DNA of 64,000 bases from positions 1 through 64,000 of the forward strand of contig JANXNI010000005.1 of NCBI GenBank assembly GCA_025354165.1, given 5' to 3'. Source of the stretch: Burkholderiales bacterium (GTDB lineage Bacteria; Pseudomonadota; Gammaproteobacteria; Burkholderiales; Casimicrobiaceae). This document shows, in pieces, positions 2,004-61,314 of this stretch (position 1 is the stretch's first letter; every line of letters starts with the position of its first letter). Below the pieces are notes generated by a model, which was not told the origin of the DNA, searched no databases, and saw only the letters and a list, made by a program, of their open reading frames with translations. Both the position numbers and the translations under genes were made by a program.

Positions 2004-2010
2004 CTCTCCA

Positions 2011-2165
2011 GGGCACCTCTAAAAATTCATTTGTGGGGCGCATTGTGTCGTAGCGCGGTGCTCGCGCAGTTGCCAAAAGCGCTCATGCAACAGGGCGGCA
2101 ATGAAGGTTGCTGCGCTCCGGGCTCCTAACACTGCATCCCCAAAAATGAATTTTTAGAGGTGCCC
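2011..2165. mobile_element. Miniature inverted-repeat element, copy 1
   Basis: This 155-bp element begins GGGCACCTCTAAAAATTC and ends with the near-exact inverted complement, giving terminal inverted repeats of about 28 bp. It contains the internal block CCTAACACTGCATCCC found in the other two copies. TCCA immediately precedes the element (2007-2010) and is repeated immediately after it (2166-2169), which looks like a 4-bp target-site duplication. No coding capacity. It lies between alaC and hom, 24 bases upstream of the hom ATG. Confidence 0.8.
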
Positions 2166-2189
2166 TCCACACAAAAAACAAAGAAGGCA

Positions 2190-54570: not shown

Positions 54571-56195
54571 GCGCTGTTCTCTCCGTTCGCAACCTGTCCG
54601 TTGCACTACCAACTGGTGCTGACCGAGCGCTAGCTGCCGAAAACATAAGCTTTGAAGTCAACGCCGGCGAAATCCTCTGCCTGCTCGGTGAATCAGGCTC
54701 CGGAAAATCAGTTATTTCGTTTGCGGTGATGGGCCTGCTGCCCGACAACGTGCGAGTGTCGGCGGGCGAAATTTTGCTAGGTAACGAAAACCTGCTCACG
54801 CTTTCGCCGGCAGCATTGCGCGGCAAACGCGGCGACGATATCGCAATGGTTTTTCAGGAACCGATGACTGCATTGAACCCGGTCATGACCTGCGGCGATC
54901 AACTCGACGAGTTGCTCGCTGAACACACGCAGCTTTCAGCCAATGAGCGAAAGGCAAAAACGCTCGCGATGTTCGAGGCAGTCAAACTGCCGGAACCCGA
55001 CCGCATTTTCAGCAGCTATCCGCATCAGCTGTCAGGCGGTCAGCGCCAGCGCATCATGATCGCGATGGCGCTGATTCTTGAGCCGAAGCTTTTGATCGCC
55101 GACGAGCCCACCACGGCGCTCGACGTCACCACGCAGGCCGAAGTGCTCGCGCTGATCAAAACGCTGCAACGCGAACGCGGCACCGCAGTGCTCTTCATCA
55201 CGCACGACATGGGCGTCGTCGCCGAAATCGCCGATCGCGTAGTAGTATTGCAAAACGGCAAACAGGTTGAAGCAGGCACCAAGGATCAAGTGCTGCGGCA
55301 ACCGCGCGAGGCCTACACGCGAATGCTCATCGCCTCCGTGCCCGGCACCGAGCCGCCTGCGGAGGGTATCACCCACGACGGCGCAGCGCTCTTGTCGGTA
55401 GTGGGTCTCGGCAAGACCTATTCCAGCGGCGGTTGGTTCCAGAAGAAGCGCATAACGGAGGCCGCAAAGGGCGTGAGCTTCACGCTGCATCCCGGTGAAA
55501 CCGTTGGCATCGTGGGGGAGTCGGGCTCCGGCAAAAGCACCGTCGCGCGCTGTATCACGCGTTTGATCGATCCCACGATCGGCGACATGCAACTGGGCAA
55601 CACGAGACTCGACGGCGTCTCACGTGACAGCCTCAAACTCGCGCGCAAACGCATCCAGATTATTTTTCAGGATCCGTATCGCTCGCTGGATCCACGGCAG
55701 CGCGTCGGCGAAGCCATCATCGAAGGCCCGTTGAATTTCGGCGTCTCACGCAACTCGGCGATGGCGCGTGCCAGAGATTTGATGAACCTCGTGCGCCTCT
55801 CCCCCGATGTACTGTCGCGCTACCCCAACGAATTTTCTGGCGGCCAGCGCCAGCGCATCAGCATCGCGCGTGCGCTCGCTCTCGATCCTGAAGTTTTGAT
55901 TTGTGACGAAGCGGTCTCCGCGCTCGACGTCTCGGTGCAAGCACAAGTGCTCAAGCTGCTCGAAGAAATTCAGGCCAAACTCAATCTCGCGATTCTGTTT
56001 ATCACGCATGACTTACGCGTCGCCGCACAGATCTGTGATCGCGTGCTCGTGATGCGGCGCGGCGAAGTCGTGGAGCAGGGCACCGCGCGTGATGTGTTCA
56101 TCACGCCAAAGCATGCTTACACGCAGAGACTGTTGGCCAGCGCGCCGGGGCGGGGGTTTGAGTTTGCGACTCAAACGACTAGTGGGCACCTCTAA
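54567..56195 (+). CDS. dipeptide-type ABC importer, fused DppD-DppF ATPases
   Basis: A 542-residue protein with two ABC ATPase domains: first Walker A GESGSGKSVISFAVMGLLP (from about 40), QEPMTALNPVMTCGDQL, LSGGQRQRIMIAMAL, LLIADEPTTALD; second Walker A GESGSGKSTVARCITRL (from about 316), QDPYRSLDPRQRVGEAI, FSGGQRQRISIARAL, LICDEAVSALD. Such fusions resemble GsiA/YejF. It is translationally coupled to dppC by ATGA. The last codons G-H-L and the TAA stop (56184-56195) come from the inverted-repeat element inserted at 56184, so the original C-terminus has been altered there. Confidence 0.92.
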   Translation: MSAVLSVRNLSVALPTGADRALAAENISFEVNAGEILCLLGESGSGKSVISFAVMGLLPDNVRVSAGEILLGNENLLTLSPAALRGKRGDDIAMVFQEPMTALNPVMTCGDQLDELLAEHTQLSANERKAKTLAMFEAVKLPEPDRIFSSYPHQLSGGQRQRIMIAMALILEPKLLIADEPTTALDVTTQAEVLALIKTLQRERGTAVLFITHDMGVVAEIADRVVVLQNGKQVEAGTKDQVLRQPREAYTRMLIASVPGTEPPAEGITHDGAALLSVVGLGKTYSSGGWFQKKRITEAAKGVSFTLHPGETVGIVGESGSGKSTVARCITRLIDPTIGDMQLGNTRLDGVSRDSLKLARKRIQIIFQDPYRSLDPRQRVGEAIIEGPLNFGVSRNSAMARARDLMNLVRLSPDVLSRYPNEFSGGQRQRISIARALALDPEVLICDEAVSALDVSVQAQVLKLLEEIQAKLNLAILFITHDLRVAAQICDRVLVMRRGEVVEQGTARDVFITPKHAYTQRLLASAPGRGFEFATQTTSGHL

Positions 56196-56326
56196 AAATT
56201 CAGTTGTGGTGCGCATTGTGTCGTCACGCGGTGCTCGCATTCCTCACGTACCAGGGTGTACGCTCCGGTTGCAGTGCTCCGGGCTCCTAACACTGCATCC
56301 CTAAAAATGAATTTTTAGAGGTGCCC
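56184..56326. mobile_element. Miniature inverted-repeat element, copy 2
   Basis: A 143-bp element with the same GGGCACCTCTAAAAATTC terminal inverted repeats and internal CCTAACACTGCATCCC block. TAGT flanks it on both sides (56180-56183 and 56327-56330), a 4-bp direct repeat. Its left end overlaps the fused ATPase gene and supplies the stop codon. Confidence 0.85.
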
Positions 56327-56353
56327 TAGTATCCCTTAGATACCTAGGTCAAA

Positions 56354-61159: not shown

Positions 61160-61314
61160 GAGCACCTCTACAAATTCATTTGTGGGGCGCTTTGTGTCGT
61201 TGCGGGGTGCTCGCGTTTTTGCCAAAAGCGCTCATGTACAAGAGCGTACGTTCCGGTTGCTGTGCGCCCCACGCCTAACACTGCATCCCCAAAAATGAAT
61301 TTTTAGAGGTACTC
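61160..61314. mobile_element. Miniature inverted-repeat element, copy 3 (ends diverged)
   Basis: A 155-bp element with the same internal block and inner terminal repeats; the outermost bases are GAGCACC/GGTACTC instead of GGGCACC/GGTGCCC. No 4-bp flanking duplication is visible. It begins 2 bases after the MoaD-like stop and ends 3 bases before the ATG of the propeller gene; AGAGGT at its end is placed to act as that gene's Shine-Dalgarno. Confidence 0.8.

Follow-up and report, generated by a model that had tools for sequence, protein, structure and literature searches.

The described systems closest to the element reported here are miniature inverted-repeat elements (MITEs) of the IS5 family such as MITEPsy1, a sequence of 100 nt that the consulted part of PMC3189936 assigns to 'IS5?' with a 4-nt duplication of CTAG or YTAA. 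As these MITEs are described there, they are like our element short and non-coding, with inverted ends and a 4-bp duplication, and moved in trans, but the end sequence of MITEPsy1 is different. Similar sequences are reported in other bacteria, and the same part of PMC3189936 mentions no core that is common to different end types. CGTC repeats are stated to have no dedicated transposase, and their mobilization is left open, in the sections of PMC3733652 used here. The small RNA sX9 is counted, in an excerpt of PMC9029176, among the most prevalent annotated bacterial sRNAs. MITEs are usually seen as deletion products of one parent IS; here, the pairings of core and ends are multiple.

The analysed window is a stretch of 64,000 nucleotides from a Burkholderiales bacterium (contig JANXNI010000005.1, positions 1–64,000), which holds three copies of the element on the forward strand, at the positions given in a preliminary description. 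Copy 1 (2011–2165; 155 bp) is a longer variant, defined by its sequence and by sites without the element in the congeners G012, G014 and G009. Copy 2 (56184–56326; 143 bp) is a shorter variant and copy 3 (61160–61314) again has 155 bp, both being defined by sequence and genome search. The terminal inverted repeats of copy 1, at 2011–2038 on the forward strand and 2138–2165 on the reverse strand, agree by eye at 27 of 28 bases, in keeping with the length of about 28 bp first proposed. The exact 4-bp target duplications claimed for two copies are read directly from the sequence: TCCA at 2007–2010 and 2166–2169 around copy 1, and TAGT at 56180–56183 and 56327–56330 around copy 2. The flanks of copy 3 (TAGT and CAGA) form no duplication. 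The 18-bp ends are exact on both sides of copies 1 and 2 and have two mismatches each in copy 3. Searched with up to three mismatches, a 19-base end pattern gives six matches in the window, which are the six ends, where shuffled sequences predict 0.01. Between the ends lies a hairpin core, which model R1 places on the forward strand at 2044–2131 in copy 1 (36.6 bits), 56217–56292 in copy 2 (78 bits) and 61193–61280 in copy 3 (45.3 bits), with one further match at 11.6 bits that is noise. Rfam at curated cut-offs gives a single match across the window, a tRNA. At 143–155 bp the copies are too short for a transposase gene, as their lack of coding capacity had been described. The MITE reading with transposition-type duplications is backed by copy number, by the 4-bp duplications and by relatives' sites without the element. 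The element is, very probably, a MITE with IS5-family ends that is moved in trans and has a core not tied to these ends.

The whole-genome search proposed earlier shows that the element is far commoner than three copies. In the source assembly (97 contigs totalling 4.72 Mb, 95% complete), 69 raw matches, many of them one place on both strands, reduce to 40 separate places, some partial; one end-only place brings the total to 41. A copy was called well bounded when both 18-bp ends lay within four mismatches, which holds for 28 of the 41; the remaining 13 were left out of the duplication count, including two with exact 4-bp flanks (L026 and L070). Exact 4-bp duplications flank 12 of the 28 well-bounded copies, where mismatched partners would give 0.15, and at least three of the four flank bases are equal in 21 of 28 (2.56 expected). 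Identical flanks of 3 bp or of 5 bp are found in none of the 28. Among the 12 duplicated words, ten start with T (TCCA, TATT, TGAA, TTAT, TTCG, TGTA, TAGT, TAGA, TCAA and TTTA), and the other two are AGCA and CCTG. Copy lengths are bimodal, with 15 copies of 143–145 bp, 12 of 154–157 bp and one of 166 bp. The end pattern, with up to three mismatches, matches 31 + 35 places in the genome, compared with 1 + 0 for its reversed control. For the single ends (C78; L056, L071), no second end occurs within the 3-kb locus, and a plasmid search with copy 1 gave no match. The context of 24 copies, judged from long reading frames rather than a gene caller, is between co-directional frames in 15, divergent in four, convergent in three and within a frame in two.

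Sites without the element were sought in 16 congeners with the joined flanks of ten sites, one duplication being removed (the flanks of copy 3 were left unaltered). For copy 1, the joined flanks match without the element in G012 (1–217 of 220), G014 (1–219) and G009 (2–216; 76% identity). The junction is a single CTCCA in G012, whereas in G014 and G009 it has diverged and TCCA is missing. In at least five further congeners the flanks match apart. The expectation that relatives carry empty sites with a single target word is thus borne out for copy 1, which is absent in three congeners and leaves the single word in G012, and not for copy 2, for which no match across the junction is listed among the 16 congeners and whose flanks lie 473 bases apart in G001. 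For copy 3, single matches cross the junction in G006, G013 and G005 at 68–71% identity, as aligned by the search and not by hand, and the site of another copy (L017) is crossed in G001 at 74%. In G001 (L399) and G003 (L388), the intergenic spot of copy 1 is filled by other palindromic repeats, and hairpins may be favoured at this spot. One copy with no target duplication (L004) apparently sits, by eye, at the same site as a copy in G001 (L244); thus, at least one insertion would be older than the split between the source genome and G001.

Regarding the transposase, the preliminary description supposed a full-length donor elsewhere in the genome, bounded by the same repeats. None was found in the source assembly (97 contigs, 95% complete), which has no match to PF01609, in a search positive in nine of 14 control genomes, or to two IS5-type protein queries. 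Multi-copy IS are often missing from fragmented assemblies; thus, in an assembly as fragmented as this one, the absence of a transposase is not established either. The part of the proposal that stands is the matching ends, which occur on IS5-type elements in other genomes. A full-length element of 1254 bp on an Acidihalobacter contig (L151) has ends with one and zero mismatches of 18, and its protein of 346 aa matches NCBIfam NF033581 (transpos_IS5_4) at 268.6 bits against a cut-off of 140; its flanks are unequal (TTCA/TACA). This autonomous member and the window copies share the same ends, as is looked for in an IS5-family derivative. In G050, from the same order, an IS5_4-type frame is present in nine copies of 99–100% identity. 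The elements measure 1334–1335 bp, with two mismatches per end in the copies inspected and identical 4-bp flanks in one of the three with both ends seen, and the first frame exceeds the cut-offs of NF033581, PF05598 and PF01609. The copies inspected (L188, L189 and L190) have two overlapping frames of 299 and 167 aa, not one transposase, and the frameshift behind this layout is either common to these copies or programmed. The congener G001 holds pieces of an IS5-type element at contig ends, with three mismatches in the ends. These IS5-type ends lie about 120–140 bases from several contig ends (L195–L198 and others), a pattern typical of a multi-copy IS that the assembly has collapsed. The matching ends on IS5-type elements, together with the 4-bp duplications, make IS5-type mobilization of these ends well supported at the level of sequence. 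An IS5-type DDE transposase would recognize the inverted repeat of about 18 bp, GGGCACCTCTAAAAATTC, acting in trans, and the ends and duplications suggest that the element moved with duplication of 4 bp of target.

The same ends occur widely and enclose different interiors. The 18-bp end is present in at least 116 stretches of public genome contigs, including, among the matches listed, Nitrosomonas, Nitrotoga, Gallionella, Fibrobacter, Planctomycetes and Clostridia. These listed matches contain 92 end pairs of 60–400 bp, of which 65 have identical 4-bp flanks, a count taken without a shuffled control. Blastn sorts the 92 interiors into 19 clusters; the largest has 48 members, and ten are singletons, of which one is largely masked. 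Window copies 1 and 2 cluster with each other, outside these 19. Such clusters do not prove separate origins, as some may be kin too distant for blastn; the cluster of L156 and L138 is kin of the window core by model R1. When model R1 was run on 100 of the 116 public loci (among the matches listed), it gave seven matches, two of them (L156 and L138) inside an end pair; thus, by this model, most public elements with these ends are without the window core. Seven of the 92 listed elements contain CGTC-tagged REP units, defined as in the part of PMC3733652 consulted (the tag, an 8-bp stem with at most one mismatch, a 4-base loop and CCA), and all seven have exact 4-bp duplications. Five carry two units on opposite strands and two carry one unit; the stem begins with AT at least once in six of the seven, and two (L147 and L168) are near-identical and from one genome.

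The core in turn is found far beyond these ends. A search with one copy (L017) matches 12 of 27 genomes, with full copies in congeners and the inner part alone, otherwise framed, in other genomes; in G022, for example, the core is framed by CAGGCTGTTGAAAAG with flanks such as CTAG/CTAG. Model R1, scoring at most 17 candidates per genome, matches 106 of 274 sampled genomes of the class, one of them the source genome, at E ≤ 0.01 per genome, a threshold at which chance would give about three. Viral contigs scanned with the core pattern gave no match. Single core copies are present in one Salmonella Infantis record and in three of 5426 E. coli genomes (L250, L251 and L252), and the two E. coli copies viewed sit between ucpA and cysP. 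In eight copies of G022 (L257, L261, L262 and L268–L272) and one of G001 (L244), a stem segment like TTTGCCAAATGAG takes the place of the usual arm or lengthens it, on one side or on both, and a segment similar to it is present in the 155-bp window variant.

For the core structure, 83 cores gave 79 within length limits, 40 after removal of near-copies and 38 in the final alignment, from which two cores with an inserted stem module were left out. Of the 17 pairs in the consensus hairpin, 12 show changes on both sides among the 38 diverse cores. Paired cells amount to 96.6% compared with 86.0% after shuffling, and the covariation score of 0.301, against 0.107 in shuffles that ignore relatedness among copies, was reached by none of 500 shuffles. 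An unpaired TCA in the internal loop and a bulged T are invariant or more than 90% conserved across the 38 copies; the side of the loop opposite the TCA is less conserved. Lowest-energy folds of 20 elements, computed without shuffles, are mostly one long imperfect hairpin; the fold predicted for window copy 2 is divided into three inner hairpins instead of a single one. These data show that the core pairing is kept. The covariation does not give the cause, since the shuffles ignore relatedness and arm-to-arm copying could also produce paired changes.

The best-surviving alternative takes up this last point: the covariation would be DNA mechanics, produced by template switching between the arms of a quasi-palindrome with no selection on structure. 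Long imperfect hairpins are a classic substrate for template-switch correction, most of the folded elements take that form, and in some G022 copies, such as L261 and L268, an arm segment is replaced on both sides. However, unselected correction should erase both the unpaired TCA and the bulged T, and these are conserved. We regard template switching as a possible but rather doubtful source of the covariation.

A second alternative concerns function. The core could be a true small RNA or a cis-acting RNA, namely sX9, that the host needs, with mobility being secondary. We compared the core loci with sX9 (Rfam RF02228; gathering cut-off 44) at 29 loci, in sets of nine and 20. Three of the 20, all with other ends, exceed the cut-off on the right half of the core (L276, L278 and L279), and eight more loci match below it, namely L274 and L275 from the 20 and six of the nine; the others gave no match at the limits applied. 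At E ≤ 0.01, 15 of the 20 core loci have no sX9 match; the window has none at the cut-off, and three copies from the source genome have none at E ≤ 5. A comparison of five loci gave one weak match, of 23.8 bits, in a G001 copy. Part of the sX9 annotation therefore likely marks such hairpins, to judge from the RF02228 matches on these loci. The strong covariation of the core, the three matches over the cut-off on its right half, the prevalence of sX9 among annotated sRNAs (in the portion of PMC9029176 seen) and the placement of 15 of 24 classified copies between co-directional frames would all suit a host RNA. The target duplications and the sites without the element argue against it, as do the lack of sX9 matches in the window at the cut-off and in the three source copies, and the 15 of 20 core loci with no match. 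The copy common to the source genome and G001 (L004/L244), matched by eye, is compatible with a host RNA or with a mobile element. The possibility, raised in the preliminary description, that the element instead belongs to a conserved RNA gene holds in half: its core is conserved, forms a hairpin and is related to sX9, but this hairpin lies inside a mobile element. A host RNA with secondary mobility is unlikely in our view.

The end types that frame the core were set class by class after inspection of 29 single loci and 80 further stretches, with a loose match of up to five mismatches per end, rows of equal flanks merged, and L301 and L366 counted in both A2 and C. Ends of the type GAACCTGTTCACGAT have 3-bp duplications in six of nine loci (control 2.1), and class A2 ends of the type GAGCTTGTGA have them in five of 12 (control 2.5), which is weak. 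The window's end type frames the core in G080 and G172, with 4-bp duplications in four of five loci (control 0), and CAGGCTGTTGAAAA ends have 4-bp duplications in seven of 23 (control 1.2). Around class D and E ends, GGACTTACGC (n = 7) and GACCTCTTTCC (n = 6), TA is present on both sides in all, equal to the control, and so may be part of the element. Classes F and G (six and two loci) have no clear duplication. The Salmonella copy L250, missed by the script, has by eye TAA on both sides of GAGCCTATCCCA ends. Within each of G080 and G172, the core lies between two end types. One locus of G228 (L333) has nested ends, GGAACCTCTGA outside GAACCTGTTCACGAT, as if the hairpin had acquired a second end pair or had landed inside one. 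The class-wise ends replaced a first automatic end finder, which was poor because palindromic duplications were drawn into the ends. That finder had placed ends at 56 of the 94 core loci and given eight identical 4-bp flanks against 1.04 expected and a maximum of five in 1000 shuffles; with so few identical flanks, many core copies are old or ambiguous. An end-pattern search recognized no full-length elements with class C or A1 ends, and none was recognized for these or the other end types in 20 stretches judged by their ends and the starts of long frames, without a family search.

Core trees were used to compare end types with descent. On a tree of 82 clearly end-labelled cores, the end labels need 11 changes, with a least possible seven and a shuffled mean of 41.6. 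Four of the eight end types need one change each, and the well-supported branches alone force at most one origin per end type. A more careful tree of 51 of these cores, with the long-branched L138 left out, rejects a single clade for class B, the window's end type (p 0.0005), and for class C, CAGGCTGTTG (p 0.00004). A single origin of classes B and C is thus rejected by the core trees, with the caveats that the columns used are few (77) and pair with each other and that the tested groups were named after the first tree. The alternative with no end exchange, a single MITE lineage of great age in which ends and transposases diverged together, would fit the strong clustering of end types (11 changes against a shuffled mean of 41.6), the four of eight types needing one change and the one origin per type forced by supported branches, but it is improbable given the rejected clades for classes B and C (51 cores), the two end types that carry the core within G172 and within G080, and the window's ends around CGTC-REP units and other cores, for which descent alone is insufficient.

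In many Gammaproteobacteria this covarying hairpin core is paired with other ends, whose duplications are of 3 bp or are different 4-bp ones, and elsewhere the window's ends enclose other cores. These two sets of comparisons suggest that ends and middle are exchangeable parts. The hairpin is probably kept either because co-directional genes tolerate a folded insert without a gene between them or because the fold aids spread. Joining of the core to new ends by nested insertion, as L333 might illustrate, or by recombination between arms is a guess. We infer the acting transposase, the repeated exchange of ends and cores, and the benefit of the hairpin to spread or tolerance from genome comparisons. 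A broader proposal, to which we give slightly less than even weight, is that of modular MITEs: palindromic cores selected for their fold would pass between the ends of different transposases, the window's hairpin core would be one such module across Gammaproteobacteria, sX9 would partly be a half of this core, and the CGTC REPs would be another module, carried inside IS5-type ends. If true, this would explain how gene-less palindromes outlast their transposases, as one core would survive the extinction of any single transposase. It would also provide a carrier for the CGTC REPs, an open question in the consulted sections of PMC3733652, and the sX9 'sRNA' family would partly be a fragment of a mobile element, so that genome annotation would change.

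Finally, we compared the element with other known palindromic repeats. The literature searched, with most subscription journals outside it, describes no bacterial MITE with one core and different ends. The CGTC REPs are palindromic units, often in head-to-head dimers as described in part of PMC3733652, and such units are found inside window-type ends; the window copies carry a core other than those of the CGTC-positive public elements. The model of sX9, an sRNA of Xanthomonas, matches several loci over the right half of the core and onward into the stem; however, sX9 is annotated as an sRNA gene and not as half of a mobile hairpin, and the window copies fall below its cut-off. ERIC/RU-1 of enterobacteria is an imperfect hairpin of 127 bp whose motif order is similar by eye to that of the core (Table 1a of PMC2759123). 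Its membership of the core family is not supported, the best E value with model R1 being 0.26 (four copies, 2093 bases, filters off). YPAL/RU-2 of Yersinia is a palindromic intergenic repeat of about 168 bp with duplications (parts of PMC2229807 and PMC2759123), and its printed sequence, compared by eye, looks unlike the core. QMITE1 and QMITE2 of Coxiella are MITEs that yield small RNAs, QMITE2 being present in more than one species, and they are set apart from the window element by description, as the sizes and duplications given in the consulted text of PMC5896051 differ. Beside these families the element is ordinary as a MITE, and the exchange of ends and cores would be its surprising part.
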